A DNA stretch of 64,000 bases. It comes from Gelidibacter maritimus (GTDB lineage: Bacteria; Bacteroidota; Bacteroidia; Flavobacteriales; Flavobacteriaceae). Below, piece after piece: positions 6,306 through 62,059 of the stretch. Made by a program: the position numbers and the translations under genes. Below the pieces are notes generated by a model, which was not told the origin of the DNA, searched no databases, and was given only the letters and a program-made list of their open reading frames with translations. The stretch is taken from assembly GCF_014062315.1 (NCBI RefSeq), contig NZ_JACGLT010000008.1, forward strand, positions 124,001-188,000. The letters are read 5' to 3'. How positions within the stretch are numbered: the stretch's first letter is position 1; each line of letters begins with the position of its first letter.

Positions 6306-6313
6306 TATCTTTG
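6306..6313 (+). promoter_or_regulatory. Predicted -7 box (TATCTTTG) for rpsO
   Basis: Exact TAnnTTTG match. Transcription would begin near 6320, so the in-frame GTG at 6318 cannot be the start, which supports the ATG at 6369. Confidence 0.55.
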
Positions 6314-6368
6314 CACCGTGATTCGAAAATCGAGTCCGTACATAACAATCATTTACAATAATATTAGC

Positions 6369-6638
6369 ATGTATTTAGATCAAAAAGAAAAAGAAGCCAT
6401 CTTTACAAAACACGGTAAAGGGCCAAAAGACACAGGTTCTGCAGAAGGACAGATTGCGTTGTTCACTTATAGAATCAACCATTTAACAGGACACTTAAAA
6501 AACAATCGTAAAGATTTTAACTCTGAGCGTTCTTTGGTAAAATTAGTTGGTAAACGTCGTGCCTTACTCGATTATTTAACTAAGAAAGATATCTTAAGAT
6601 ATCGTGCCATAGTAAAAGAATTAGGGTTAAGAAAATAA
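6369..6638 (+). CDS. rpsO: 30S ribosomal protein S15
   Basis: Primary 16S rRNA-binding protein of the small-subunit platform. The 89 residues from MYLDQKEKEAIF to LGLRK match the usual length, and the conserved GSAEGQIALFTYRINHLTGH and LVGKRRALLDYL stretches are intact. A longer frame starts at a GTG at 6318, but the predicted promoter overlaps that position. A strong terminator follows. The adjacent pnp has the same order as in many bacteria, although a terminator separates the two here. Confidence 0.97.
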   Translation: MYLDQKEKEAIFTKHGKGPKDTGSAEGQIALFTYRINHLTGHLKNNRKDFNSERSLVKLVGKRRALLDYLTKKDILRYRAIVKELGLRK

Positions 6639-27580: not shown

Positions 27581-27667
27581 TGGTCCCTTCAGGACTTGTT
27601 TGAACGCATTTTATATCATTAGCATAGAACTTGCGTTCTATGCTAATGTGTATCGTCCCTTCGGGAC
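27581..27667. repeat. REP-like palindromes upstream of the RAYT gene
   Basis: GTCCCTTCAGGAC at 27583-27595, a perfect 14-bp stem CATTAGCATAGAAC/GTTCTATGCTAATG with loop TTGC at 27617-27648, and GTCCCTTCGGGAC at 27655-27667. They match the GTCCC/GGGAC motifs downstream of the transposase in opposite order. The rest of 27338-27693 shows no gene. Confidence 0.85.
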
Positions 27668-27693
27668 TATTTTAGACAACATGAGTTCAAGCA

Positions 27694-46930: not shown

Positions 46931-47605
46931 CTATTTGTCTATTGATTTTACAAGTTGAAAAGCTTCCGCATATATAACGCCCGCACTAGCACCTCTGTAT
47001 GTGGCTAGTGCTTCAATATTTTTTAAGCTTCGAGGGAATGGATGAATCCCCAATTCTGATTTATAAATGCCCATTATTCTAAGCTTATCTTCCATATAAT
47101 CCGAGATATCAACATAATGATTTGGCAAGAATGCTTTCTCTGCTAATACTGGAGCAAATTCAGTTTCCGATAAACACTCATACATATAAACCTTTTTTAT
47201 ATAAGGATACCTAAAAGATTTAGTACAAGCCATTACCGCATTAAAGGTTACTCGATGGTCAGAATGCGCATCAGATCGGTTTAAACAATAAATTACTTCT
47301 GGCTCTACCTCCGTAAAAATTTTTGAAATTTCAGGCACCATAGTAATTAAACTTGACGAAGACAAAGCCATCGTTGGATAAGGCAGTATAAATGTTTTTA
47401 CTATGCCTAACTCTTTGGCTACTTGTTTAATTTCCTCTTGTCTGGATTTTAAAAATTCTTCAGAAAATCCATCTTTCTCGTATGCTGTAGTAGTTATCAA
47501 CCAATAGATAGAATCTCCATTCATTTTATGTTTTAGTAGAGTACCTCCGACTCCAAGAATCTCATCATCGGGATGCGCTGAAATTATGATAACATTTTTA
47601 CTCAT
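46931..47605 (-). CDS. PIG-L family N-deacetylase
   Basis: A 224-residue LmbE/PIG-L metal-dependent deacetylase. The zinc site is visible: IISAHPDDEILGVGGTLLKH near residue 8 (AHPDDE) and NRSDAHSDHRVTFNAV near 110. Such enzymes remove an N-acetyl group from small amino sugars. The start codon overlaps the stop of the formyltransferase gene (47602-47605), so the two are coupled, which suggests sequential action: free an amine, then formylate it. The acceptor is probably the nonulosonic acid or a precursor (inference). Confidence 0.87.
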   Translation of the reverse strand: MSKNVIIISAHPDDEILGVGGTLLKHKMNGDSIYWLITTTAYEKDGFSEEFLKSRQEEIKQVAKELGIVKTFILPYPTMALSSSSLITMVPEISKIFTEVEPEVIYCLNRSDAHSDHRVTFNAVMACTKSFRYPYIKKVYMYECLSETEFAPVLAEKAFLPNHYVDISDYMEDKLRIMGIYKSELGIHPFPRSLKNIEALATYRGASAGVIYAEAFQLVKSIDK

Positions 47606-48495
47606 AAGTATTCATTTATTTTAGGTAATTCTTTAAACTCATGTCTTATTAAAACGATTGCCCCATCATAAGATTTAACGACAACTTCACCTTTATCTGA
47701 AATATCAAGAATTTTTCCCGGCTCTAAATTATTCGGATATTCAACTTCGGAAATAGAAGTTTTCCAAACTTTCACATCACCATTGTTGGTCTCTATATGG
47801 GCTCCAACATAAGGGTGAGTTAATGCTCTAACCAAGTTATAAATGGCATTTGAAGTCATACGAAAATCAATCTTCCCATCCATCTTCTCTCTTTTTCTCC
47901 AATTATTTCCAAGAATTTTGTTTTGAATTACTTTATTAGAAATTTCACCCTCATTCTCATAGATATAAGAAAATTCTAATAATTGATTTAAAGCACTGAC
48001 TTTGATCTTCTCATATAATGTGGCTGCGTCATCATGCGGTGAAATTTTAATATCACGCTGAGAAATAATATCACCGGTATCAGCGCCCTCATCCATTTCA
48101 AAAAAGGTAGAACCAGTTTTATCCAGACCTAAACACAAAGCCCATATAATAGGGTGTCTACCTCGATTATTTGGTAAAAGTGCAGGATGAAATCCGACTA
48201 CACCATATTTTGCGGCATTAAGAATACTTGGTCGAAGAATGTGAGACCATCCAAAACAGTATATTATATCAGGGCGATGTTCAGCTATAAATTCTTCCTT
48301 TGTCTGAGGATTAAGCCTTTCGTCAAAATAAAGGGGAATATCATTACTTATACAAAGGGGAGATAAATCCTTAAAGTCTGAATTGAACTTCGAATACCTT
48401 TTTGTTATGACTCCACATAAATTAAAATTATTATCTATTAAATGTTCTAAACATGAATAGGAAAAATCTACAGTGCCAATAAAAAGTATTTTCAT
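47602..48495 (-). CDS. Formyltransferase-family protein (candidate sugar N-formyltransferase)
   Basis: A protein of about 297 residues with an N-terminal formyl_transf_N domain and a C-terminal Fmt-like domain. MKILFIGTVDFSYSCLEHL opens the domain; GFHPALLPNNRGRHPIIWAL near 107 has the catalytic His; STFFEMDEGADTGDIISQ near 133 has the catalytic Asp. The Asn usually two residues before the His (N-x-H) is Gly here. I place the start at 48495 (MKILF); five more in-frame codons upstream lie inside neuC. It is not the housekeeping methionyl-tRNA enzyme, because it sits in a nonulosonic-acid operon between neuC and a deacetylase. N10-formyl-THF is the likely formyl donor. Confidence 0.8.
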   Translation of the reverse strand: MKILFIGTVDFSYSCLEHLIDNNFNLCGVITKRYSKFNSDFKDLSPLCISNDIPLYFDERLNPQTKEEFIAEHRPDIIYCFGWSHILRPSILNAAKYGVVGFHPALLPNNRGRHPIIWALCLGLDKTGSTFFEMDEGADTGDIISQRDIKISPHDDAATLYEKIKVSALNQLLEFSYIYENEGEISNKVIQNKILGNNWRKREKMDGKIDFRMTSNAIYNLVRALTHPYVGAHIETNNGDVKVWKTSISEVEYPNNLEPGKILDISDKGEVVVKSYDGAIVLIRHEFKELPKINEYL

Positions 48496-48496
48496 T

Positions 48497-49660
48497 TTAT
48501 TCAAGGTCATAAAATTTCTTTTTAATTAAATTATCCAATTCAACATTTTTTAAAATTGAAACAATACTTTCAGAAGAATTCTCCTTTTCATATGGATTAG
48601 CGACCTTTTTAAGAGTTTCTTGAAAATCTTTAGACAAAGCCTTTCTAATAGCGTTTGATATACTCAATTTATCAGGATCGCAGTCAATTACGCTTTCAGC
48701 TTTTATTCTACCTTTCTGTCTGTCTCCTATATTTACAGTAGCCTTCTTAAATGAAGGGACTTCAATCAAGCCACTAGAAGAATTTCCTACAACCACATCA
48801 ATAAACTGCAGTGCAGAAAGATATCGAAGCTGTCCAAGCGATGCGAATACAACCGATTTACCTGGATATTTTTTCACGAACTCATCAACGAGAGTATTTA
48901 TAATTCTACCGTCAGTATCAGAGTTTGCTTTTGTAAAAATTACTTTAACATTTGTCATTTCTTCGAACACCTCTAATAATTGGCTAATCTGCTTCTCAGC
49001 GGTAGACTTCTCAAGAGTTACAGGATGAAATGTGACCAAAAAATGATGTTGCTCATCCAGTTTAAAGTTAATTGATTCCTCAAAATCTTCCTTACTTAAA
49101 AGTTTTAGTTTTTTAATATTTTCTATTCCTAGTGCACCAACATTATGCACATTTTCAGGAGTTTCTCCTAATTGAATAATTCGATTTTGATAAGCACACG
49201 TTGAAGGAAAATGTATGTGAGACATTTTGGTGATAGAATGTCTAATAGGCTCATCTATTAAGCCTTCCGTTGCTTCCCCACCGTGACAATGAGCAATAGG
49301 GATACGGGCAATCATGGCTGCACTTACAGAAGAGAAAATCTCGAATCTGTCGCCAAGGACTAAAATAATATCTGGTTTTAAATCCTCAAAGGTCTCTGCA
49401 AAAGAAATCATGCCCAGGCCCATACTCTTAGAAATTCCCACAGGCGTATCGGAAGACAGCAACATTTCAACCTTTTTATCAATTTGAAAACCGTCGTTCT
49501 CAATTTCTTTATAGGTGTTTCCAAATTCTGGAGATAAATGCATACCCGTCACAACAACTTGCAACTTTAAATCTATATCACTTTCAATGGCTCTCATTGT
49601 CCAATATAAAAGCCCATACTCTGCTCGTGTACCAGTTATGACGCAAACTTTTCTTTTCAT
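48497..49660 (-). CDS. neuC: NeuC/LegG-like hydrolysing NDP-HexNAc 2-epimerase
   Basis: A 387-residue UDP-GlcNAc 2-epimerase-fold enzyme of the hydrolysing type, which frees the 2-epimerised sugar from the nucleotide to feed the synthase. Landmarks are VITGTRAEYGLLYWTMRAI at the N-terminus, LVLGDRFEIFSS, IAHCHGGEATEGLIDEPIRHSITKMSH near 120-146, VTFHPVTLE and VVGNSSSGLIEVPSFKKATVNIGDRQKGR. In a legionaminic-acid pathway this is the LegG step. It overlaps neuB by four bases. Confidence 0.9.
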   Translation of the reverse strand: MKRKVCVITGTRAEYGLLYWTMRAIESDIDLKLQVVVTGMHLSPEFGNTYKEIENDGFQIDKKVEMLLSSDTPVGISKSMGLGMISFAETFEDLKPDIILVLGDRFEIFSSVSAAMIARIPIAHCHGGEATEGLIDEPIRHSITKMSHIHFPSTCAYQNRIIQLGETPENVHNVGALGIENIKKLKLLSKEDFEESINFKLDEQHHFLVTFHPVTLEKSTAEKQISQLLEVFEEMTNVKVIFTKANSDTDGRIINTLVDEFVKKYPGKSVVFASLGQLRYLSALQFIDVVVGNSSSGLIEVPSFKKATVNIGDRQKGRIKAESVIDCDPDKLSISNAIRKALSKDFQETLKKVANPYEKENSSESIVSILKNVELDNLIKKKFYDLE

Positions 49661-50664
49661 AGCTCTATTAGTTGATCATCAGTAAAATCTTTATTAGCAA
49701 TTTTTCCAATAATAGCATTCCACTTCATTGGACTAATTCCTGAACCAGGTCTTTTCACTGCCAAATTATTATTTGAAAATGTTTGACCTTTCTTTATTGG
49801 TCCTTGCGCTACAATACTTTTACGAACAATCTCTTTATTTTTCGATTCCGAATCAGAAGGTTCTTTGATACCACTCCCACTGATCGCCTTTTCAATATTT
49901 CTGATGGATGCAACCATCGCTTTTAATTCTGTAGGTTCTAAAGACGCTCTATGGTCTGGACCTGGCAATGATCTATCTAAAGTAAAGTGTTTCTCAATGA
50001 CTGTCGCTCCTAAAGCCACAGCAGCAATTGGCACTTCAATTCCTAAAGTATGATCGGAATATCCTATAGCTGTACCCAACTCTTTTTCGATATGCAACAT
50101 GGCTCTTAAATTGACATCTTGCATTGGCGTAGGGTATTCTGTGTTACAATGTAATATGGTGATGCTTGAAGGCTTAACACCAGCTTCAATCAAGACTTGA
50201 TAGGCATCCTTGACTTCCTGTATATTCGCCATCCCTGTAGAAAGAATAAACTCAGAATATAATTCTGCCATCTTTTCCAGATATGGTAAATTGGTAATTT
50301 CACCAGAGGGAATTTTAGCTAAGGTGATTCCAATATCAGCGAGAAATTGTAAACTATCCAAATCAAAGCCAGTAGATAGAAATTTTACATTCTTAGTTTG
50401 ACAGTAAGCTATCAATTCCAAGTGATCTGCTTCAGAAAGCTCCAATTTCTTGAGCATTTCATATTGAGAATCGCTGTTTTTAGTATTTGTATTTTGATAC
50501 TCGGCGCGCTCCGCTGATTTCGTAACAAGTTTAGCGGCTTTAAAGGTTTGAAACTTCACATAGTCCACACCTGCCTCCGCAGCAACGTCTATAAGTTGTT
50601 TGGCGGTGTCAATACTCCCATTATGATTGACCCCTGCTTCTGCGATAATCAATGTTTTGTTCAT
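49657..50664 (-). CDS. neuB: NeuB/LegI-like nonulosonic-acid synthase
   Basis: Condenses a 6-carbon amino sugar with phosphoenolpyruvate to give a 9-carbon acid. The 335-residue protein has a TIM-barrel domain (IIAEAGVNHNGSIDTAKQLI, DYVKFQTF, KIPSGEITNLPYLE, HCNTEYPTP, GYSDHTLG, EKHFTLDRSLPGPDHRASL) and a C-terminal SAF/antifreeze-like domain (about 280-335, KGQTFSNNNLAVKRPGSGI). The catalytic and metal residues of the family look complete. It lies in a tightly overlapping set with neuD and neuC. Legionaminic substrate is preferred over neuraminic because legB and legC are in the same locus. Confidence 0.93.
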   Translation of the reverse strand: MNKTLIIAEAGVNHNGSIDTAKQLIDVAAEAGVDYVKFQTFKAAKLVTKSAERAEYQNTNTKNSDSQYEMLKKLELSEADHLELIAYCQTKNVKFLSTGFDLDSLQFLADIGITLAKIPSGEITNLPYLEKMAELYSEFILSTGMANIQEVKDAYQVLIEAGVKPSSITILHCNTEYPTPMQDVNLRAMLHIEKELGTAIGYSDHTLGIEVPIAAVALGATVIEKHFTLDRSLPGPDHRASLEPTELKAMVASIRNIEKAISGSGIKEPSDSESKNKEIVRKSIVAQGPIKKGQTFSNNNLAVKRPGSGISPMKWNAIIGKIANKDFTDDQLIEL

Positions 50665-51287
50665 TTTTTAAGTAGTTTTGCCGGATTTCCAATCCAAACT
50701 TGATGGTCAGGAACATCCCTAATAACAGTACTTCCTGCACCAATAACAACATTCCGCCCAATCGTCACCCCTTGTTTTACCACGGAATTTGCCCCTATAA
50801 AAGCATTTTCGGAAACCTTAACATTCCCCGCCAATACTGCACCTGGCGCAATATGGACTGCATTTTCAATAACACATTCGTGTTCTATAATTGCTCCTGT
50901 ATTTATGATACAATAATCGCCTATTTCAACGAGTGGATTTATGGCAGCATTTCTGGCAATAAAATTACCTGATCCCAAAGTTAACATTTTCGTAACTGAG
51001 GCTGATGGGTGTATAATATTCAAAATTTTCTTGGATTTGGATTTTATAAATCTCCCAAGTTTTTCTCTTATCTGATTATCCCCCATTCCTAATATAAAAT
51101 TAATATCTCTATCCCATTCAAAATTAGGATCCATTTCAAAGCCTAAATAATTTAGATTGAAATGGTTCGGAAAAACTTCTTTTGGTTCAAGATAACCATC
51201 AATTTTTATATTGGAAAGTAAAGCTGCTTCCGTGACTACGTATCCATGCCCAGAGTATCCTGCTAAAATTGTTTTAGTACTGTTCAT
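50661..51287 (-). CDS. neuD: NeuD/LegH/PglD-like sugar O/N-acetyltransferase
   Basis: A 208-residue protein with an N-terminal PglD-type Rossmann segment (ILAGYSGHGYVVTEAALLSN, binds the sugar nucleotide) and a C-terminal left-handed beta-helix (about 95-208). The active-site His is in GAIIEHECVI, and later coils include APGAVLAGNVKV and IGRNVVIGAGSTVIRDV. In this setting it would acetylate the 4-amino sugar made by LegC (the LegH role). It is the first gene of the nonulosonic-acid operon and overlaps neuB by four bases. Confidence 0.87.
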   Translation of the reverse strand: MNSTKTILAGYSGHGYVVTEAALLSNIKIDGYLEPKEVFPNHFNLNYLGFEMDPNFEWDRDINFILGMGDNQIREKLGRFIKSKSKKILNIIHPSASVTKMLTLGSGNFIARNAAINPLVEIGDYCIINTGAIIEHECVIENAVHIAPGAVLAGNVKVSENAFIGANSVVKQGVTIGRNVVIGAGSTVIRDVPDHQVWIGNPAKLLKK

Positions 51288-51493
51288 ATTAAGATGTTTC
51301 TGAGATCATAAACCTATTACTCCAAATAACCTCATCATATGTTAAGCAACTTGATTTCCGAAATAATTTCCAACTAAGAGGCTCAGTCTGAACACGGCTT
51401 CGCCGCCATCAGTCACATTATATTTTATAACATGATGAAAATCAATCTTTTAAATTAAAAGACAAAACGCCACAAAAGCGCTTTAAAAGTGTG

Positions 51494-51501
51494 CAAAACT
51501 A
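51494..51501 (-). promoter_or_regulatory. Possible -7 box for the nonulosonic-acid operon
   Basis: On the minus strand this reads TAGTTTTG, a match to TAnnTTTG, about 207 bases before neuD. No -33 element is clear, and the leader would be long. Confidence 0.3.
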
Positions 51502-51525
51502 CAACATTATTAAGAAACTACCATT

Positions 51526-52404
51526 TTAAAATGGCATTTGTTTTTGTACTACAAACCACGGGTTCAACAGGTTCTTTTTATTATATCTCAAGGGCTGCAT
51601 CGTCTTCCAATCAATAACCTCGACTCCAGCTTGCTTACAAATGGCTTGCCCAGCAGCGGTGTCCCACTCCATTGTAGGTCCAAATTTCGGATAAGAATCG
51701 GCCTGCCCTTCCGCAATCAAGCAAAACTTTAACGAACTGCCCTTAGCAACGATTTTGACCTCCCCGTATTTTTGACGCATCTTTTGGATATACGTTGCTG
51801 TGGCTTCAGACGGATGTGAGCGACTGGCCAGAATGGTAAAGTTGTTGTTGGCTTTGTGAAGAGGGAGTTGTGCAGCGGCCGCTATTAAGGCCTCTATGCT
51901 ATAGTGATTGAGATCCTTTACTTTCACTTTAAATGCGCCAGAGATAGACGTTGAACTTGAAATTGAACTAGCCCGCCTGCCGTCCGCGTGAATGACTTCC
52001 GCGGGCAGGGCGAGGCACGAAAAATACAAGTCTCCTGAAACGGGCACAAAAATGACTCCCAATATGGGTTTTTGATTTTCAATCAGGGCGATGTTGACGG
52101 TGAATTCGCCATTGCGTTTAATAAATTCCTTGGTGCCATCAATCGGGTCAACAATCCAAAGTTGTTTCCAATCCTTTCGAATAGTGTACGGAATAGCCTT
52201 GCCTTCTTCAGATAGTACGGGAATATCCGTAGCACTTAAATGCGCCATAATAACATGGTGCGCAGCAGTATCAGCTTTGGTTAAAGGCGAGTGATCCTCT
52301 TTAAGCTCAACTTCAAAATCATCGGAATTGTAGATGTCCAAGATGACTTTTCCTGCTTCTAAGGCGGCAGTGATGGCGGTTTGTAGGGGTAAAAAATTAG
52401 GCAT
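51526..52404 (-). CDS. cysQ: 3'(2'),5'-bisphosphate nucleotidase
   Basis: Inositol-monophosphatase-fold enzyme of 292 residues that hydrolyses 3'-phosphoadenosine 5'-phosphate from sulfate activation. Metal-binding motifs are DHSPLTKADTAAH near residue 37, EEGK near 65, WIVDPIDGTKEFIKRNGEF near 88, and GPTMEWDTAAGQAICKQAG near 238. It lies upstream of the nonulosonic-acid operon with a 238-base spacer and is not obviously part of it. A repeat region begins 48 bases beyond its start codon. Confidence 0.92.
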   Translation of the reverse strand: MPNFLPLQTAITAALEAGKVILDIYNSDDFEVELKEDHSPLTKADTAAHHVIMAHLSATDIPVLSEEGKAIPYTIRKDWKQLWIVDPIDGTKEFIKRNGEFTVNIALIENQKPILGVIFVPVSGDLYFSCLALPAEVIHADGRRASSISSSTSISGAFKVKVKDLNHYSIEALIAAAAQLPLHKANNNFTILASRSHPSEATATYIQKMRQKYGEVKIVAKGSSLKFCLIAEGQADSYPKFGPTMEWDTAAGQAICKQAGVEVIDWKTMQPLRYNKKNLLNPWFVVQKQMPF

Positions 52405-52452
52405 GAGGAATTAGGGATTTGATTAACGATTGAAGCATGTTGATTTTTGAAC

Positions 52453-53530
52453 AACGGTCAACACTAATCAGGGAAATTTAATGAGTTTCAGTTTAAAATT
52501 AATAATTAAGCACCCGTAAAGGTAGTTTAAATTATTTGAGGCCAGCTTACTACTTTTTTATACTTAGCATTTACGTCACTTTGATAACGCTGATATATTG
52601 ATAAACAATAACATAAATTCGGCATAACTAACGGGGTTCGTTCCGAATAGTCAGAAGCGCTCACCCTAATACATGAAAGCAAAATCTCACCTCACCCCTT
52701 TAGGGGACGGGGGCAATGCCCAAATCAAAGAAATTGTCCAGTAAAACGCAATTTGTTATAAATAACGGGCTCGTTCCGAATAGTCGGAAGCGCTCACCCT
52801 GACACATGAAAGCAAAATCTCACCTCACCCCTTTAGGGCCAGGGGGTAAAGCCAAACCTCTTACCCAATCCAATATCTGGATAAGCACCAATAAAATTCA
52901 TTAAATATAAAAGGGTTCCTTATGAATAGTCTAAGCGCTCACCCTGACACTGGACAGCCAAATCTCTCCTCTCCCCTTTAGGGGCAGGGGGGTAAAGCCC
53001 AAAACAAAGGAATTATTCAGTAAAAATACAATTCGTTATAACAAAAGGGTTCCTTCCGAATAGTCAGAAGCGCTCACCCTGACATTGTGAAGCCAAATCT
53101 CTCTTCTCCCCTTTAGGGGCAGGGGGTAAAGCCCAAATCAAAGAAGTTGTCCAGTAAATCAAAAGTCGTCATAATAAAGGGGTTCCTTCCGAATAGTCAG
53201 AAGCGTTCACCCTAATACATGAAAGCCAAATCCCACCTCACCCCTTTAGGGGCAGGGGGTCAAGCCAAATCTCATACCCAATCCAATATCTGGATAAGCA
53301 CCAATAAAATTCATTAAATATAAAAGGGTTCCTTATGAATAGTCTGAAGCGCTCACCCTGACACTGAGCAGCCAAATCCACCTCACCCCTTTAAGGGACG
53401 GGGGTAAAGCCCAAATCAAAGAAATTGTCCAGTAAAAATACAATTCGTCCAACTACGGGGTTCGTTCCGAATAGTCGGAAGCGCTTACCCTGACATTGCG
53501 TTGTCACCCTGAATAGCCTGCCCTGAGCAG
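52453..53530 (+). repeat. Seven-unit higher-order tandem repeat (about 133/146/134 bp units)
   Basis: The marker GAATAGTC occurs at 52645, 52778, 52924, 53058, 53191, 53337 and 53469, giving spacings of 133, 146, 134, 133, 146 and 132 bases. Units three apart are 411-413 bases apart. The two 146-base units share an insert (ATCTGGATAAGCACC...TTCATTAAATAT) absent from the others. Each unit carries GAAGCGCTCACCCT, then a CCCCTTTAGGGG palindrome, then a GGGGGTAAAGCC stretch. At 52453-52474 lies a copy of the AACGGTCAACACTAATCAGG motif. No credible gene lies in 52405-53789. Confidence 0.88.
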
Positions 53531-53789
53531 AAAACGACGGATGAGCGACGTGTCAAGTGTGAAGCATTCACTAACACCTAAATTAAAAAACAATCAATTG
53601 TTAGTAATCTGTTTATTATGGCGCCAAAACTTTGAGATTGCTTCGTCCTGCATCCCTGCCCTGCCGGTAGAAAGCGACGAAGGAGCGACGCGGCAATCTT
53701 TAGGTACAACCTTCCAATTAATAAATGACGTCCCATTCTCTATAAAGGCCTAACGTTGTTAGTGGAAAAAATCAACAAAGCGTATTATC

Positions 53790-54107
53790 TTATTGGTTTT
53801 TTTTAAACTCGACAATGTCTGCTTCCGAAATTGAATCAAAAATGGTAGCAAAGTCTAGCATCGTGTACCCTAAAGATTCAACAATCATAATTACGGTAGT
53901 AGAATTTGGACCTGATTTTGATTTTGCATTAAATGCGTCTGAGACAGTGGCCTTTCTAACATCTACTGCTAAAGCAATCTCATTATAACTATTAACACCC
54001 TCTTCTTCTATAGAAGAAAATGATTTATCTTTCTTTCTGGAGTCCAATAGTCTATGTAAGCTAATTGCAATTTTATATTTTATAGATGTAACTAACTCCT
54101 TTTTCAT
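53790..54107 (-). CDS. XRE-like helix-turn-helix regulator
   Basis: A 105-residue DNA-binding protein. The helix-turn-helix core is SYNEIALAVDVRKATVSDAF near residues 40-58, followed by the helices STTVIMIVESLGYTMLDFATIF typical of XRE/Cro-type regulators. The first 35 residues are basic. The start codon at 54107 lies 22 bases from a long inverted repeat (54129-54170) that is a good candidate for its own operator. It is divergent from the SusC/SusD operon, with a large structured element between. The regulated genes are not known. Confidence 0.8.
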   Translation of the reverse strand: MKKELVTSIKYKIAISLHRLLDSRKKDKSFSSIEEEGVNSYNEIALAVDVRKATVSDAFNAKSKSGPNSTTVIMIVESLGYTMLDFATIFDSISEADIVEFKKNQ

Positions 54108-54128
54108 ATAGGCAATAAACTATTTCTA

Positions 54129-54170
54129 AAATAAAATATCGGTACGGTTTGGCGTATCGATATTTTATTT
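54129..54170. promoter_or_regulatory. 18-bp-arm inverted repeat, probable operator of the XRE gene
   Basis: AAATAAAATATCG-g-TACG, a six-base spacer (GTTTGG), then CGTA-t-CGATATTTTATTT. The arms match at 17 of 18 positions. It is 22 bases upstream of the XRE start and has no T-tail suggesting a terminator. Confidence 0.65.
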
Positions 54171-54220
54171 ATATATTTGACTACGTATCTTATATTTTAG
54201 GATACCTATTTTATAATTTT

Positions 54221-54401
54221 GCGAAAGCATTTCTAAAAAATTAGAAGCATTCGCTTTGAATCTCGTTTTCAAAAACTGGTAATTTTTAAAATGCACGAGA
54301 TGATAAGTAAGATGCTCACGACCTAGGCGTGAGCTCACTTATTCGTGCAACGGTATACCAGTACCTTGAAAACGTGTAAGCTGAGTTCCACGCCTTTTTT
54401 T
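54221..54401. ncRNA. Large nested inverted-repeat structure, candidate structured RNA
   Basis: Five coaxial perfect stems nest around one loop: 54264-54272/54366-54374 (9 bp), 54275-54281/54356-54362 (7 bp), 54292-54298/54343-54349 (7 bp), 54303-54308/54337-54342 (6 bp) and 54314-54320/54328-54334 (7 bp). The loop ACCTAGG contains a palindromic CCTAGG. A separate hairpin with loop AAAA precedes it at 54221-54254, and a T7 run follows at 54395-54401. A possible -7 box TAATTTTG is at 54214-54221. It is unannotated by any family I can recall, and strand and transcription are not proven. The stretch 54402-54726 is AT-rich without a gene. Confidence 0.5.
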
Positions 54402-54730
54402 ATTCAAGGTTCTACTCACTTTATTCTTAGCACTGCTCTTCTATTTTTAAAAGTTTCGCACTAAAACAGTTAGAATTAGTTATTAAATTTTTAAGCATTT
54501 GCCTATGCAGATATAAGTTGTAGACAAAAAAATCCTCCAACCTAAAGTATTAATAGCACCAATAATAACAATGAAAAATGATTAATTAGAATTAGTCTTG
54601 GGAACGGGCCGTTGTTGGTTGGAATTTAGAGTAAAAAAGGTGGCGGCCCCTCTTCCCTAAAAAACTAAAACACATAAAGCCTATGATATAACATAAAGTC
54701 ACCTAAGCCTTTGGCTTACAATAAAAAAAC

Positions 54731-54766
54731 CCGCTCTTAGTTTTCGAGGACATCAGAGCAGGCTAA
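54731..54766 (-). terminator. Minus-strand terminator just upstream of susC
   Basis: On the minus strand CCTGCTCT pairs with AGAGCGGG (one T-G pair) across a loop of about 17 bases and runs into seven T at 54724-54730. No minus-strand protein gene lies upstream of it, so it may end an RNA antisense to the susC start. A small hairpin TAAGCC/GGCTTA is at 54704-54718. Confidence 0.55.
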
Positions 54767-54803
54767 GTTAAAACAATTGTATCACTTTAACCAACACAAA
54801 ACT

Positions 54804-57800
54804 ATGATAAATAATCATAATTCAATAAGGTGGCGGCGTATTTTTATCTGCTGTCTTTTCTTTCTAACCTCTATTATGCCACTCACGGCCCAACAAATAC
54901 TGGTATCTGGCAAGGTTACCGATGGCAACCTGCCCATCTCCGGCGCCAATGTGCTTATTAAAAACACAAAAACTGGCGTAGTCACAGACTTTGATGGTCG
55001 CTACAACATTACCGCCAAACCGACAGACACGCTCCAAATATCCTATTTGGGGTATACTACGGTTACGATTCCAATTCAAAGCCACACAACCATACATGTC
55101 ACACTCCAGGAAGATGTAACAGCTCTAGGAGAGGTGCAAATCAATGCAGGCTATTACACTACTACTGACCGTGAAAGGACGGGGAGTATTTCTAGGATTA
55201 CAGCGAAGGAGATCGAGGGGCAGCCTGTGAATAACCCGTTAGCTGCTATGCAAGGTTACATGTCAGGAGTAAATATTGTACAAACCACGGGCGTGCCAGG
55301 TGGAGGGTATGATATACAAATTAGGGGAAAGAACTTTATTAATGGCGGGACAGATCCACTTTTTATAATTGATGGCGTTCCATTTAGCTCACAATCTTTA
55401 GGAAGCAACAGCGTATCTGCTCAAATCACTGGAGGAAATATTAGTCCATTAAACGCTATAAACCCTAACGATATTGAAAGTATTGAAGTATTAAAGGATG
55501 GTGATGCCACAGCCATTTATGGCTCTAGGGGAGCCAATGGAGTGGTGTTAATTACAACGAATAAAGGAGGGACAGGTAAAACACAGTTCAAAGCAAATAT
55601 CAGCAGTGGTGTGGGTCAAGTGTCACATTTTATAGACCTTATGAACACCGAGCAATATTTAGAAACACGTAACGAAGGAATAATAAATGATGGATATCAA
55701 ACTTTATTGAACGATCCAGCCTATGATTACATATGGCCGGACGTTAAATCTTGGGATCAAAATCGCTATACAAACTGGCAAAAGGAACTTATAGGAGGTA
55801 CTGCTCATCGAAATAATGCGCAACTCTCTGTCTTAGGAGGAAACGCTGAAACAAGGTTTTTGATCAGCGGCTCCTATAACAAAGAAACCACGGTATTTCC
55901 CGGAGATGCCAAGTACAAAAAGATGACGGTGTTTAGTTCATTAAATCATCGTTCCATGAATAACCGCTTCTCAATTGATTTCTCCTCTACTTATTCCAAC
56001 GAAAAAAACAACTTACCTCGATCTGACTTTACGTCCCTTGCTTATTCTCTTGAACCGAATGCACCCGCTTTATATGATCAACAAGGAAATCTGAATTGGG
56101 AGAACAATTCATGGGACAACCCTCTTGCTTCTTTGAACGAACAATATGAAGCTTCCTCAAATACTCTTTTTTTCAATTCTTTAATTTCCTTTCAACTACT
56201 ACCGAATCTGGCATTGAAATCAAATCTGGGTCATAACAATTATAGTTTGCACTCATATAGAACTTTACCAAGCTCCGCAAGGAATCCAAAATTCGGCTTC
56301 ACTCCCCAAAGTTATTCGTCTCTAACCACTAATGGTTCTGAGCGCCAATCTTGGATTGTAGAGCCACAATTACATTGGAGCAAACAGTGGAGAAGGACAA
56401 CCTTAGACGCATTAATTGGCACGACTTTCCAACAAGAGACAGGTAGCCAATTTGTTCAAAATGGAAAAGGCTTCCCAAATAATAATCTACTTCTAAATTT
56501 AACAGCAGCAAACAATGTAAATGTACTCCAGGATGACAACAGCAAATATAATTATAATGCAATTTTTGGACGTTTGAACATGAACTATTTAGGGAGATAC
56601 ATTATAAATTTAACAGGTCGTAGAGATGGTTCTTCAAGATTTGGACCTGGAAAACAATTTGGAAACTTTGGAGCGGCAGGAATCGCTTGGCTCTTTTCTG
56701 AAGAAGCCTTTTTAAACAAGAATTCCCTGCTAAGTTTTGGAAAGCTACGTGGCAGCTATGGAGTTACTGGAAGCGATAATATTGGAAACTATAAGTTTTT
56801 AGACACCTACAATGTTACGGGACTGGATTACAATGGGATAACAGTTCTAGAGCCAACAGGAATATTCAATCCTTTATTTGGATGGGAATCAAATAAAAAA
56901 CTGGAATTGGCTTTGGAACTCGGCTTTTTCAAAGAACGTTTATTCATAAACACCTCCTGGTATCGAAACCGGTCTTCTGATCAGTTGATTGGTATTCCAT
57001 TACCTGCAACCACAGGATTTTCAACTCTGACAGGAAATTTCAATGCAACAGTTGAAAACTCAGGATTTGAAATTGATTTTCGGATAATTGATTTACTTCA
57101 AGAAAAAATTAAATGGACGGCCGCATTTAACATTGCGGTACCCAAAAATAAACTAATAAAATTTGACGGACTTGAAACATCCACATTCTCTAACCAATAT
57201 ATCATTGGCAAACCACTTTCTATCCTAAAGTTATACAATGCCTTAGGGGTAGACCAAGAAACTGGAAGCTATAAATTTGAAGATTACAACGGTGATGGAA
57301 ACATTAGTAGTCCAGAAGACAGACAGTGGCTTGAGGATCTTTCACCTAAGTTTTATGGCGGATTGAGCAATACTTTAAGTTACGGCAACTTTACACTTAA
57401 TATGTTTTTGCAATTCAAAAACCAAAAAGCATTTAATGAATTTGTAGTACAAGCAACCCCCGGCCTTAAAGGTAATGCTTCTATAAAACTGCTAGATAGA
57501 TGGCAACAGCCAGGCGACACAAATCCCATTAAAATGGCGTCAGGAGGTTTATCTCGTGGACGAGATAATGGTAGTTTTCTAAAACAAAGCAATGCCGCGA
57601 TATCAGATGCTTCATTTATCCGATTGCGCAATGTATCCCTAAACTATTATATACCCACACTTAATACTTTTGATATCAATGTGTACTTACAGGGTCAGAA
57701 TTTACTAACATTTACCAATTTTGGAGGACCTGATCCAGAACAGTCGTTCTATAACACCCTACCTCCTTTAAAACAAATAACCCTTGGAATAAAAATAGAC

Positions 57801-57806
57801 TTTTAA
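54804..57806 (+). CDS. SusC/RagA-type TonB-dependent outer-membrane transporter
   Basis: About 1000 residues. A signal peptide ends near AQQ (residue 30), then a carboxypeptidase-regulatory-like domain (ILVSGKVTDGNLPISGANVL to about residue 110), a plug domain (GYYTTTDRERTGSISRI, NPLAAMQGYMSGVNIVQTTG, IQIRGKNFINGGTDPLFIID, GSRGANGVVLITT) and a 22-strand barrel. The GYY...RTGSIS and NPL.A..GY..GV sequence type is the one often found with peptidases and redox proteins rather than glycan PULs (recollection, not checked). The ATG at 54804 is preferred over 54777. It is followed 20 bases later by susD. It imports a ligand with SusD; the substrate is unknown and may be peptide. Confidence 0.9.
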   Translation: MINNHNSIRWRRIFICCLFFLTSIMPLTAQQILVSGKVTDGNLPISGANVLIKNTKTGVVTDFDGRYNITAKPTDTLQISYLGYTTVTIPIQSHTTIHVTLQEDVTALGEVQINAGYYTTTDRERTGSISRITAKEIEGQPVNNPLAAMQGYMSGVNIVQTTGVPGGGYDIQIRGKNFINGGTDPLFIIDGVPFSSQSLGSNSVSAQITGGNISPLNAINPNDIESIEVLKDGDATAIYGSRGANGVVLITTNKGGTGKTQFKANISSGVGQVSHFIDLMNTEQYLETRNEGIINDGYQTLLNDPAYDYIWPDVKSWDQNRYTNWQKELIGGTAHRNNAQLSVLGGNAETRFLISGSYNKETTVFPGDAKYKKMTVFSSLNHRSMNNRFSIDFSSTYSNEKNNLPRSDFTSLAYSLEPNAPALYDQQGNLNWENNSWDNPLASLNEQYEASSNTLFFNSLISFQLLPNLALKSNLGHNNYSLHSYRTLPSSARNPKFGFTPQSYSSLTTNGSERQSWIVEPQLHWSKQWRRTTLDALIGTTFQQETGSQFVQNGKGFPNNNLLLNLTAANNVNVLQDDNSKYNYNAIFGRLNMNYLGRYIINLTGRRDGSSRFGPGKQFGNFGAAGIAWLFSEEAFLNKNSLLSFGKLRGSYGVTGSDNIGNYKFLDTYNVTGLDYNGITVLEPTGIFNPLFGWESNKKLELALELGFFKERLFINTSWYRNRSSDQLIGIPLPATTGFSTLTGNFNATVENSGFEIDFRIIDLLQEKIKWTAAFNIAVPKNKLIKFDGLETSTFSNQYIIGKPLSILKLYNALGVDQETGSYKFEDYNGDGNISSPEDRQWLEDLSPKFYGGLSNTLSYGNFTLNMFLQFKNQKAFNEFVVQATPGLKGNASIKLLDRWQQPGDTNPIKMASGGLSRGRDNGSFLKQSNAAISDASFIRLRNVSLNYYIPTLNTFDINVYLQGQNLLTFTNFGGPDPEQSFYNTLPPLKQITLGIKIDF

Positions 57807-57826
57807 CATTAAAACACAAAAAAAAA

Positions 57827-59257
57827 ATGAAAGACATACTTTATTTGGCCTACTTCCTATGGCCATCAAAATACTTATCGAAATTTAAGTATTATTTAAA
57901 TCAAATAGCCTTCTTCCTTTTGGGATGTTGGCTACTTGGTTGCTCGGACTTTGTGGAAGTAGATTCACCAAAAAACATTCTCATTTCGGAAACCGTATTC
58001 AACGATCCAGCTACTGTAGAATCTGCATTGGCAAATATCTACTATAAACTTCGAGACCAAGGCATGGTAAGTGGCAATTTCGGATTGACAACTTTGATGG
58101 GAATTTATGCTGACGAGCTGGATTATTATGGCACCAATCATAGCTATCATGAATTTTATAACCATACTGTTGCTAATGAGAATTCCATTCTATTGAGTTG
58201 GTGGAATCATGCATATCATCTAATTTATGCATCCAATGATATTTTAAAAGGATTAGAAGCTTCACATAATATACCATTCGAAAAACGAGAAAGCTTGACC
58301 GGTCAGACACTTTTTATAAGAGCGTATATCCACAGTCATTTGGTGTCCTTGTTTGGTGAGATACCTTACATTACATCCACGGATTATTTAAAAAACCAAG
58401 AGATATCTCGAACTGCTGAATCAGAAGTCTATGAACACATAATAGCAGACCTTAGAAATGCCATTGATTTTCTAAAAAATACAGAAAACAAAGTTGGTGA
58501 ACGGGTGATTCCTGACCAAAATACTGCGAAGGCTTTATTGGCAAGAATTTATCTTTACACAGAGAAATGGGATCTTGCTTCATCCTTGGCTACAGAAGTA
58601 ATTGAGGCCTATGCCATAGAACCAAATTTAGACGATGTATTCCTGAAAACTTCTCAAGAAACCATATGGCAGTTAAAACCAGGCGTCAATCCAAAAAACA
58701 CACAGGAAGCCAATCAGTTAATAATCCAAGGGATTCCTGGTCAAAATTATGCTTTGAGCGAATCACTACTATCAAATTTTGAAAATGGCGATTTACGTTA
58801 TATCAATTGGATAGGTACCAAGTCTAACACAGACAATGACGTCACATTAAAATATGCACATAAATACAAACTTTTATTTCATGAAATGGAGTCTTTAGAA
58901 TACTCTATTCTTTTTAGACTGGCCGAGCAGTATTTGATTCGCGCTGAAACTATGGCAAAGCTAGGAAACTTTGCACGCGCTCAGCAAGACCTCAATGTTA
59001 TTAGAAACCGTGCAGGATTGTCAAATACTACAGCCAATTCGCTAAACGAGATTTTGGACGCTATCCTCCAAGAACGACAGGTAGAATTATTTTCTGAGCA
59101 TGGCCATAGATGGTTCGATCTAAAACGTACTGGCAAGGCTCCAGAAGTTTTAAGTGTACTTAAATCAAATTGGGAGCATTACAATCTTCTTTTTCCAATT
59201 CCAGAAAAGGAATTATCAATTAACCCCAATTTATTACCTCAAAATAATGGTTACTAA
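57827..59257 (+). CDS. SusD/RagB-type surface lipoprotein
   Basis: A 476-residue partner of the SusC transporter. The lipobox is LLGC in FFLLGCWLLGCSDFVEVDSP, so the mature protein starts near Cys42. The N-region before it is unusually long (about 25 residues). The SusD fold is seen in the TPR-like helices and in the C-terminal YLIRAETMAKLGN, ARAQQDLNVIRNRAG and ILQERQVELFSEHGHRWFDLKRTG segments. It caps the SusC barrel and binds ligand at the cell surface. The metalloprotease gene follows after 36 bases, so all three are one operon. Confidence 0.92.
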   Translation: MKDILYLAYFLWPSKYLSKFKYYLNQIAFFLLGCWLLGCSDFVEVDSPKNILISETVFNDPATVESALANIYYKLRDQGMVSGNFGLTTLMGIYADELDYYGTNHSYHEFYNHTVANENSILLSWWNHAYHLIYASNDILKGLEASHNIPFEKRESLTGQTLFIRAYIHSHLVSLFGEIPYITSTDYLKNQEISRTAESEVYEHIIADLRNAIDFLKNTENKVGERVIPDQNTAKALLARIYLYTEKWDLASSLATEVIEAYAIEPNLDDVFLKTSQETIWQLKPGVNPKNTQEANQLIIQGIPGQNYALSESLLSNFENGDLRYINWIGTKSNTDNDVTLKYAHKYKLLFHEMESLEYSILFRLAEQYLIRAETMAKLGNFARAQQDLNVIRNRAGLSNTTANSLNEILDAILQERQVELFSEHGHRWFDLKRTGKAPEVLSVLKSNWEHYNLLFPIPEKELSINPNLLPQNNGY

Positions 59258-59293
59258 AGTACAATCTCTTTTCATAAAACTAATTTTAAAAAC

Positions 59294-61594
59294 ATGAAAC
59301 ATATAATTACGACATGCTTGTTTTTGATATATACTACAGGTTTTTGTTACCCCACGAACACATCTTTACAAGGCAATAAAACCACTGTGCAAAATTCCGA
59401 TTTGGTGCCCTTCATTACTTCTCTGATAGAAGGCAATCAACTCTACTTAGAAATCCCAAGGCGCATATTAAATCAACCTATTATATTTGTGAGATATGAC
59501 AATAAATATGACCATAAATACATGCAAGTGATTTGGTCAAAACTTGAGGATAAAATTCTATTGAAGGTTCCGAGCATAACCTCTACGGCCGGGATAATAC
59601 TGCCGATAAAGCCTAAACTTATCCTTTCAGATAACATCCTTGCAATATTTCCAATTGAAAAAGCAAAGAGTGAGGGCGATAAGTATCGTATCAATATTAC
59701 ATCACTTCTTCTTGAACAAAATATCCCATGGAGCCAAGGATTTTCGGAAACCGCAGTTCCTCAAATTAGCATGGTGTTGGATTCTGCCAATATGGATAAG
59801 GAAGTGGTCATAAAAATCCGAAAAGGAGTATTAATGGACCAAGCTAAAATATCACTCCCCATGTATTTTTCCTTCTGCGCTCTTGGAGAACCAATGAAAG
59901 CAAGACCTTATGATTTTCGCATGGGTTTTTTCAATGAAAAACTTCTAGACATTCCATATGGTGTGGAAAATCGTCGAGCTAACATAATGAGATGGCGCCT
60001 AGAGAAAGACGATGAAGACCAAGCTATTAGCAGACCTAAAAACCCCATCACCTTTGTTATGTCACCAGACATACCTAAAAAATGGAGACCCTATGTTAAA
60101 GCCGGTATTGAAGAATGGCTACCAGCTTTTGAAGAAGCTGGCTTTAGGGATGCCTTAGTGGTAAAAGAAGTAGATAGCTTAAGTGAATGGCAAGCCCATA
60201 GCATTAATACGTCTGTAATATACTGGGGAGATTCACTCAGGCTAAGAGGTTCTGAATTTGGAGTTTTTGGAGGCACCGTAGGCACTATTGTTGATGAGAG
60301 AACGGGTGAAATTCTTAAGGGTGATATTTATATGGCCATCTCGCGAGAAGAGTATTCAGAACGCTATTTTGTAAAATCAGCGCCCTTGGATATAAGAGCT
60401 CAAAAATTTCCATTTCCAGATGACCTTTTGGGCGAATTGTACCAAACAATGGTGGCCCACGAAGCCGGGCATGTTTTTGGATTAATGGATGCAAACTTTG
60501 GTAAGTTTAGCTATCCAATTGACCTCATAAGTAATGTCGATTGGGTAAATACTATGGGACACACTCCAAGTGTCATGAACTATACCCGGTCAAATAATAT
60601 AGCTCAACCAGAAGATAGCATACCTCCTTCGCTTCTCATTCAAAAAGTGGGACCTATGGATCATTACAATATACGTTGGGCTTATACCCAATTTCCAGCT
60701 GGAACTTCTCCTAAAGAAGAGCGAGCTGCATTGGAACTCATCATACGTCAGCAGGACTCTATTCCATGGTATCGGTATGATTATGGCGGCCATGAATCTA
60801 TCGGACCGGCACGTATGAACGAAGTTATAGTAACTCGCAACCCAGTAAAAAGTACCGAAATGGCATTAAAAAATTTAAAACGTGTTGTTGAATTGATTCC
60901 TGAAGTCTGCAATGATCAAAAAGACAACGCCCGTTTAGAACGTTTATATGCTAAAACTTTAGAAGTGTGGTTCGATCAAATGATGTATGTTGGTTCTCTG
61001 ATTGGAGGGTATGACATACATTACAAATCTATTAATCAAACAGGAAACATGTATGTGCCTATTCCGTCTGAAACTCAAGATGATGCACTTGATTTTCTAT
61101 TTATGAATGCGTTTAATCTTCCTGAATGGTTGATCCGACCAGAATTTTATAAAAAAATTAAATATTCAACTTTTCCTGATAAATTATTAGAATATCAACA
61201 ACGGCTCTTATTTGAATTATTAGAGGCCAAAAGAACAAAACGTTTTGAATATTTAGAATCCTTAGAGGGCTATGAAGGAGCATTACCTATGTATTTGACA
61301 AAACTACAATATGGACTATTCAATGATTTAGAGAGTTTGCATTCAAGTGTAAAACCTAGAAATCAAGAATTACAAATGACTTATATTGAAAAGTTGATTT
61401 CGATGGTACAGCAGGAAAGAGAGACTATAACTGCAGCTCGCAAAGCTTTTGCATATAGCGACTATACCAAAGGTTACATTATGGAACAATTAATGATTTT
61501 AAAGGATCGTATTCAAAACGGATTGGATAACAAAAAGGTAAATGCATCTTTGGGCCATTGGCACCTATGTCTCGAAAAACTGAATACAATCTAA
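59294..61594 (+). CDS. Zinc-dependent metalloprotease of the DUF5117/DUF4953 type
   Basis: A 766-residue protein with a signal peptide (MKHIITTCLFLIYTTGFCYP). The middle holds a metzincin site: MVAHEAGHVFGLMDANFG near 386-403 (HExxHxxGxxD) with a Met-turn PSVMNYTR near 425. N-terminal and C-terminal segments resemble the DUF5117 and DUF4953 regions of a Bacteroidota family of large secreted or periplasmic proteases. No T9SS C-terminal domain is visible. Its place directly after susD suggests it degrades or processes what SusCD imports, or matures a partner protein. It is followed by a bidirectional terminator and the convergent DUF6520 gene. Confidence 0.85.
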   Translation: MKHIITTCLFLIYTTGFCYPTNTSLQGNKTTVQNSDLVPFITSLIEGNQLYLEIPRRILNQPIIFVRYDNKYDHKYMQVIWSKLEDKILLKVPSITSTAGIILPIKPKLILSDNILAIFPIEKAKSEGDKYRINITSLLLEQNIPWSQGFSETAVPQISMVLDSANMDKEVVIKIRKGVLMDQAKISLPMYFSFCALGEPMKARPYDFRMGFFNEKLLDIPYGVENRRANIMRWRLEKDDEDQAISRPKNPITFVMSPDIPKKWRPYVKAGIEEWLPAFEEAGFRDALVVKEVDSLSEWQAHSINTSVIYWGDSLRLRGSEFGVFGGTVGTIVDERTGEILKGDIYMAISREEYSERYFVKSAPLDIRAQKFPFPDDLLGELYQTMVAHEAGHVFGLMDANFGKFSYPIDLISNVDWVNTMGHTPSVMNYTRSNNIAQPEDSIPPSLLIQKVGPMDHYNIRWAYTQFPAGTSPKEERAALELIIRQQDSIPWYRYDYGGHESIGPARMNEVIVTRNPVKSTEMALKNLKRVVELIPEVCNDQKDNARLERLYAKTLEVWFDQMMYVGSLIGGYDIHYKSINQTGNMYVPIPSETQDDALDFLFMNAFNLPEWLIRPEFYKKIKYSTFPDKLLEYQQRLLFELLEAKRTKRFEYLESLEGYEGALPMYLTKLQYGLFNDLESLHSSVKPRNQELQMTYIEKLISMVQQERETITAARKAFAYSDYTKGYIMEQLMILKDRIQNGLDNKKVNASLGHWHLCLEKLNTI

Positions 61595-61685
61595 ATATGT
61601 GTAACCCACTCATTGTTTTGTACAGTGCTATCTTACTTATAAGAAAAAACCAACTATACCTAAGTTTTTGTTTTTTGCGTTAACC

Positions 61686-61717
61686 AAGAAGGTGCCTTAT
61701 AAGGCACCTTCTTTTAA
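61686..61717. terminator. 28-bp perfect palindrome, bidirectional terminator
   Basis: AAGAAGGTGCCTTA and TAAGGCACCTTCTT form a perfect palindrome (61686-61713) between the convergent metalloprotease and DUF6520 genes. It has T-rich sequence after it on the plus strand and a shorter T-tract on the minus strand. Confidence 0.85.
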
Positions 61718-61733
61718 AAATAACCATAGTAAA

Positions 61734-61982
61734 TTACGGATTTAATTTTCGCAATGGATTCATTAACTCCATTTCTGCATACAATTGAAAGCCGTCGAAT
61801 TCACAATTAAAACCAGTTCGAGGCTGACATTCTATTCCTATGGGAACAGATTGAACTCCCAATGCAGGGTCTAAATAGTAACCCATAGTAGTGGAGGTCT
61901 TTGCATCCATTGCAAACGACAGCCCAATAGCCAAAATCATTACTAAAAACGGCATTACACTTTTAAAAAATTTTGTTTTCAT
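61734..61982 (-). CDS. DUF6520-like small exported protein
   Basis: An 82-residue protein. A signal-like N-terminus (MKTKFFKSVMPFLVMILAIGLSFAMDAKT) is followed by a short mature part with two Cys (GIECQPRTGFNCEFDGFQLY). This layout matches the DUF6520 family of flavobacterial small proteins, whose function is unknown. The start at 61982 is an ATG; an in-frame TTG at 61991 is less likely. It lies 77 bases after the MauE-like gene on the same strand, an arrangement I recall as common for this family. It may be the substrate or a partner of the neighbouring SusCD/metalloprotease set (inference). Confidence 0.75.
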   Translation of the reverse strand: MKTKFFKSVMPFLVMILAIGLSFAMDAKTSTTMGYYLDPALGVQSVPIGIECQPRTGFNCEFDGFQLYAEMELMNPLRKLNP

Positions 61983-62059
61983 AATATTCAAATTTATAAG
62001 TTATGATCTACTCTTTTTACAGGTTTTCGATCTTCCCCCTGTCACTACGTAGTATTATG

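Follow-up and report, generated by a model that had tools for sequence, protein, structure and literature searches.

The window analysed here, a stretch of 64,000 nucleotides from Gelidibacter maritimus, carries on its + strand a susC gene (54804-57806, TIGR04056), followed by susD (57827-59257, with a weak NCBIfam SusD match) and a met-zincin gene (59294-61594, DUF4953/DUF5117 by domain match), the last adjoined by a small DUF6520 protein at 61734-61991. Upstream of susC, on the - strand, lies a small divergent ORF of 105 amino acids (53790-54107) that is regulator-like in position, size and likeness to the neighbours of other copies of the element described below. It matched no Pfam, NCBIfam or HTH family, and it is 60% identical to the ORF at the equivalent place beside one of those copies (L111). 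The intergenic sequence beyond this ORF (53460-53760) contains repeated GAGCGACG-type pieces. Elsewhere in the window we observed a gene row resembling nonulosonic acid synthesis (47602-51287: UDP-GlcNAc 2-epimerase, hexapeptide transferase and neighbours, the other names being given by eye), an Acido-Lenti-1 RNA match (27623-27668, 48.9 bits, gathering score 37) and an S15-Flavobacteria ribosomal protein leader (6306-6371).

Between the divergent ORF and susC lies a conserved element of 184 positions, here called R1, which includes a long hairpin at 54264-54374 (+ strand). Folded alone, this hairpin forms nested stems of 9, 7, 7, 6, 2 and 7 pairs around a single apical loop, inside which CCTAGG is found. 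Its + strand DNA fold has an energy of -27.7 kcal/mol and a z of -8.3, and 0 of 200 dinucleotide shuffles equal it, which bears out the nested five-stem structure, far beyond chance, of the preliminary description; the - strand fold has a z of -7.2. The statement that no protein gene explains the hairpin also holds, as none of the 12 ORFs of at least 80 amino acids listed in 48000-62000 lies over it. Some 400 bases separate the T-run of R1 from susC, and the interval between R1 and susC contains, at 54726-54763, a sequence resembling a stem whose - strand reading would end in a T-run.

A palindrome at 54129-54170, with 18-nt arms that are 94% complementary, is the probable operator of the divergent regulator. 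Directly 3' of it lies box A, TATATTTG (54172-54179, + strand), a TAnnTTTG-like sequence and probable -7 promoter box, placed 42 bases before box B, TAATTTTG (54214-54221, + strand), a second -7-like box at which the model of R1 starts. TAnnTTTG occupies -12 to -5 in Flavobacterium psychrophilum (PMC9723704), and by this rule an RNA from box A would start near 54184 and contain the whole of the 5' hairpin P0 (54221-54254, + strand; 54221-54224 pairing with 54251-54254). From box B, part of P0 would be left untranscribed, and since P0 covaries (97.2% of cells paired, three of four pairs changing on both sides), box A is our preferred, if unproven, candidate for the promoter box in use. Boxes A and B were assigned independently of the sigma-70 promoter and terminator scan, which relies on an E. 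coli-type consensus.

The same arrangement recurs at other copies of R1. A divergent ORF of 60-179 amino acids, mostly of HTH type, is found near R1 in 98 of 147 contexts, with its start at -112 to -82 in 86 of the 98. Among the 90 of these 98 ORFs that were scanned (the window's own replacing that of L051), HTH_3 was matched by 54 and HTH_26 by 50, one protein being able to match both. Palindromes, boxes and T-runs were counted in the 90 copies with an ORF start at -150 to -60 from R1. In 76 of the 90 copies the best inverted repeat between ORF and R1 scored higher than the mean of its own shuffles, and several regulator groups have a specific palindrome over the promoter: in the window's group the half ATCGGTACG is present in 6/6 copies and the right arm CGTACCGAT in four, one base off in the window and L095, while a GTGGG..CCCAC-like palindrome occurs in 5/5 copies of a second group, a TGTAATCC..GGATTACA-like one in 4/4 of a third and a CGGTCG..CGACCG-like one in 4/6 of a fourth. 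Several HTH groups have no common palindrome, and 40 of the proteins are singletons. Box B retains at least five of six consensus letters in 87/90 copies, and a TAnnTTTG-like box A with at least five of six letters stands 19-20 bases upstream of it in 29 + 21 of the 90. The divergent regulator is likely to control the R1 promoter.

Two folds of the same sequence

When the stretch folded as + strand RNA was extended by 20 bases at either end of the hairpin, the best structure differed, consisting of a 5' helix plus a 3' stem in which the 3' half of the hairpin pairs with 54377-54394, just before TTTTTTT; this difference from the isolated hairpin gave the earliest hint that two structures compete. 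Four segments of the + strand are involved. Segment 2 (54297-54316) and segment 3 (54326-54343) pair with each other in the long hairpin, a candidate antiterminator that also contains outer and inner variable stems, while in the second fold the same letters form a helix of segment 1 (54246-54264) with segment 2 (helices 1-3) and a stem of segment 3 with segment 4 (54377-54394, helices 4-6), segment 4 being the 3' arm of a candidate terminator and followed by the T-run (54395-54401, + strand).

Both folds are maintained by compensatory changes. A covariance model of R1 was built from nine copies (alignment A2) and used for aligning 91 copies (A3), L016 being excluded from the former and included in the latter. 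In A3, the long hairpin with P0 has 98.3% of its cells paired, 28 of its 36 pairs have changed on both sides (0/500 shuffles reach this) and pairing falls to 31-42% when partners are slid by 1-3 columns, although A3 was fitted to a model containing this very hairpin and leans towards it. Two of the stems are nearly free in sequence, with pairing kept. The structured RNA that the preliminary description had considered is thus supported, compensatory changes in homologues having been named beforehand as part of the test. The second fold, which is absent from the model used for the alignment, has 97.0% of cells paired in the 91 copies, two-sided changes at 12 of its 26 pairs (0/500 shuffles) and 31-51% of cells paired with slid partners, and RNAalifold picked it unprompted on a plain MAFFT alignment of nine copies. 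The T-run, scored when the nine-base tail of the 3:4 stem contains at least five T, is present in 87/90 regulator-linked copies and in 54/57 others.

In the window, the two folds have predicted energies of -52.9 and -53.1 kcal/mol. Over 90 of the 91 rows of A3 the long hairpin is favoured by a mean of 4.6 kcal/mol (sd 5.3) and predicted to be the more stable in 73/90 copies, so that termination need not be the common state. The loop of the 3:4 stem, of about 35 bases with a small hairpin of its own, is unusual for an intrinsic terminator, and the terminator scan, which covers E. coli-type consensus terminators with loops of 3-8 only, did not list this stem. Read on the + strand, the non-Watson-Crick cells over all helices comprise 438 GU vs 35 AC, much of the GU count coming from a few positions with GU as the commonest pair, and this polarity makes the + strand, towards susC, the likely functional one. 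G-T is tolerated in single-stranded DNA too, so that wobble polarity fixes the strand, not RNA versus DNA chemistry.

Segment 4 has a further frequent partner, a fifth segment beyond the T-run (54402-54460 in the window, and in other copies), with pairings such as GCTGAG to CTTAGC; this pairing is above its own shuffled mean in 69/98 regulator-linked and 35/48 other copies. A conserved leader peptide was considered and rejected: several copies contain open frames such as AUGAUAAG.., though by eye neither start nor stop is conserved.

Distribution and genomic neighbours of R1

The genome of G. maritimus (4.7 Mb) contains two further copies of R1, 81% and 77% identical to that of the window, each between a divergent small regulator-like ORF and susC, and six of nine genomes of the genus have a match. 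Across the family, R1 is present at E <= 0.001 in 73 of 397 genomes and 60 of 237 genera, with 125 matches and at most six per genome, a patchy distribution. A phylum-wide sample yielded R1 in 49 of 395 genomes, of which 20 belong to the same family, 7 to the same order, 14 to the same class and 8 elsewhere in the phylum, the last eight all being weak matches (E 1e-7 to 3e-5). An exact-core pattern search returned at least 119 stretches; among the matches listed (80 loci) are Flavobacterium, Chryseobacterium, Maribacter, Arenibacter, Leeuwenhoekiella, Mucilaginibacter, Niabella, Bacteroides sp. 519 and Parabacteroides sp. PF5-9, as well as two metagenome bins named for other phyla. Four IMG/VR contigs carry the exact core pattern, and the exact hairpin arm was found in 0 viral contigs. 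By blastn, R1 matched no phage record and a single plasmid record, the 30-kb pB3-10 of Rhizosphaericola mali (L306), where an R1-like stretch lies between the replication initiation gene and a hypothetical gene.

Comparison with Rfam, proposed as a check in the preliminary description, was run against release 15 and gave no family for R1: none reached the gathering score with the window and L103, and with E up to 5 the best matches of the R1 of the window and of L213 had 17.5 and 19.2 bits vs gathering scores of 100. We found no description of R1 in the open-access papers and few subscription papers searched, a body of literature exclusive of bioRxiv. Judged by Rfam 15 and the open-access literature, R1 is apparently an undescribed two-state RNA of many Bacteroidota.

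Flanks were fetched for 80 places of the 125 family matches, and 14 more R1 places were added later. The 147 contexts are not all independent, since L234 and L103 have the same neighbours, L199 and L211 are near copies, and some loci of named genomes duplicate those of other sampled genomes. Downstream of R1 in all 147 (blastp within 2.2 kb) we found SusC in 66, dCas12f in 13 and a family of 110-amino-acid proteins in 13. For the 98 regulator-linked contexts the counts are SusC 60, dCas12f 12, the 110-amino-acid family 12, a sigma factor alone 1 and other genes 13; for the 49 contexts without a linked regulator they are other genes 40, SusC 6, and dCas12f, the 110-amino-acid family and a sigma factor alone 1 each. 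The 110-amino-acid family follows R1 at L052, L054, L056, L059, L120 and others, and the one member scanned had no Pfam match. Among 29 downstream proteins scanned (28 without a linked regulator and this one), there were four response regulators and two proteins with a RibD domain. The downstream genes are unrelated, which suggests no common ligand.

Guides of dCas12f-sigmaE that match segment 3

A 365-amino-acid protein encoded beside some R1 copies matches the 'Nuclease-deactivated Cas12f' of PDB entries 9n9c, 9n9m, 9n9o and 9n9q (E 1e-194), and its neighbour matches RpoE of 9n9q. This pair we take for the system described by Hoffmann et al. 2025, in which sigmaE is guided by RNA. Of the 397 family genomes, 19 have a dCas12f match, which in 16 of them is nearly full length, and R1 is present in 18 of the 19 vs 73 of 397 overall (1e-13, relatedness ignored), the sole exception, G384, having a dCas12f fragment near a contig end. 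The guide scaffold lies 3' of dcas12f, and its exact pattern occurs in 14/397 genomes, all among the 19; as this scaffold is a different RNA, we rejected R1 itself as the guide RNA. In three genomes, L141 (G107), L145 (G151) and L140 (G263), two or more scaffolds follow dcas12f in tandem, each with another guide; the guides of G107 match no R1.

Guides were compared with the R1 copies of their own genome. A match to segment 3 with no more than 3/17 mismatches was seen for 12 of 30 guides, which come from 11 of 17 genomes, and the best matches in R1 are all on the + strand and at the same place (54327-54343 in window numbering) after a G (54326); this G is conserved in R1 anyway and is not independent evidence. 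Where the background minimum was above 0, the best background window had 4-6 mismatches, with a median of 7-8; the minima of 0 are presumably the guide RNA itself. The 18 guides without an R1 match are two at L154 (G101), that at L153 (G169), one each of G386 and G263, two of G315, three of G107, those of G038, G335 and G307, and five of G151, and some of them share only their first five to seven bases with R1. In G132, G328, G376 and G260, a single guide matches both the R1 before dcas12f and the R1 before susC.

The search of the window's genome, run without a positive control, gave no dCas12f match, and no guide scaffold was found in it; compared with one guide RNA stretch, this genome gave two weak hits, 16-17 guide bases in its other two R1 copies. 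R1 should consequently have a function of its own there.

Proposed function of R1 and likeness to known systems

R1 is a conserved + strand element with two mutually exclusive conserved folds, one of them ending in a T-run, with a linked regulator ORF and group-specific palindromes, and it stands in sense orientation upstream of the downstream gene. Taking folds, strand, T-run and linked operon together, the best explanation, to which we give a probability of about 0.6, is that R1 is a cis-acting terminator/antiterminator leader RNA that runs rightwards into susC-susD-metallopeptidase from a promoter with the divergent regulator's operator. Each segment of this RNA could pair with the next one. 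Pairing of 2 with 3 would form the long hairpin and lock the terminator arm away, so that RNA polymerase reads through, while pairing of 1 with 2 and of 3 with 4 would place a stem before the T-run and stop transcription near 54400. We infer that the regulator governs the promoter, that the 3:4 stem terminates and that some factor shifts the balance between the two folds.

The strongest alternative, which we nevertheless consider unlikely, is that R1 acts in trans, as a small RNA terminated at the 3:4 stem that base-pairs with mRNAs elsewhere, the adjacency of susC being gene order only. The promoter-like boxes and the T-run do delimit an RNA of roughly 190-220 nt, and the segment sequences are conserved across unrelated downstream genes; however, in many contexts R1 is closely linked to its downstream gene and oriented alike, and of the 45 listed copies that lack a linked regulator, 19 have their gene start 35-60 bases after R1. 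Far less probable is that R1 serves chiefly as a place on the DNA where dCas12f-sigmaE or a comparable guided factor lands, with the RNA structure as a by-product. The co-occurrence in 18 of 19 dCas12f genomes and the 12 guides matching segment 3 fit such a site, but 55 of the 73 R1 genomes, the window's own included, have no dCas12f match, the scaffold pattern is confined to genomes with dCas12f matches, and the freely varying, still pairing stems fall outside the guide match. Slightly less probable still is that R1 works as single-stranded DNA, for example as a recombination site or the end of a mobile element, a reading with which the long hairpin of freely varying stems, the patchy distribution, an integrase-like ORF upstream of L019 and an IS200-like ORF near L109 (both by eye), the plasmid copy and the four IMG/VR contigs would agree, but against which stand the T-run, the promoter-like boxes, the linkage to a gene start, the lack of a recombinase as constant neighbour in the ORF listings and the blastn search without a phage match. 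The cruciform site and the mobile-element end that the preliminary description had also considered are not supported, given the 438 GU vs 35 AC cells, the placing of copies between promoter-like boxes and a T-run, and a blastn search with no phage record and one plasmid record.

To return to the leader RNA, the guide matches suggest that segment 3, its terminator arm, probably doubles as the place where a sigma factor guided by RNA lands. Transcription in the system of Hoffmann et al. reportedly starts some tens of bases downstream of the guide match. In relatives with dCas12f-sigmaE, guides to segment 3 would then let polymerase start beyond the terminator's 5' arm, and as an RNA started there lacks segment 3, the 3:4 stem could not form and the attenuator would probably be bypassed. 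Our wider and more tentative proposal is that R1 may be a shared regulatory socket, a regulator-controlled promoter with a two-state leader whose segment 3 would serve as antiterminator arm, terminator arm and dCas12f-sigmaE landing site, such that one guide could reach several R1 operons, including that of dcas12f itself, and a start beyond the terminator's 5' arm would amount to RNA-guided bypass of attenuation.

As a leader, R1 would bring into the regulation of SusCD uptake operons a structured-RNA family that Rfam 15 lacks, and it suggests a target of natural dCas12f-sigmaE guides together with a reason for the choice of that spot. Two questions become directly testable, namely what switches the R1 operons and how a sigma factor guided by RNA was fitted to a regulatory element that already existed.

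Transcription attenuators, such as trp-type leaders and riboswitch expression platforms, use overlapping 1:2, 2:3 and 3:4 pairings. Like them, R1 has candidate antiterminator and terminator folds that exclude each other and precede an operon; unlike them, it yielded no leader peptide or ligand, has a long terminator loop, serves unrelated genes as a single element, is linked to a divergent regulator and matches dCas12f guides with its segment 3. Small RNAs are also known as repressors of polysaccharide operons in Bacteroides; their genes are, like R1, linked to susC-type operons, but they lie antisense to these, whereas R1 runs in the sense direction. The Flavo-1 motif is likewise a widespread structured element of the Flavobacteriaceae, the same bacterial family (PMC9723704), but the Rfam scan of R1 with E up to 5 gave no Flavo-1 match. 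As for dCas12f-sigmaE (PDB 9n9c, 9n9m, 9n9o, 9n9q), its guide RNA follows dcas12f, R1 is not that RNA and occurs also in the 55 genomes without a dCas12f match, yet the two are linked in that R1 precedes the dCas12f operon in 12 of the 98 regulator-linked contexts.
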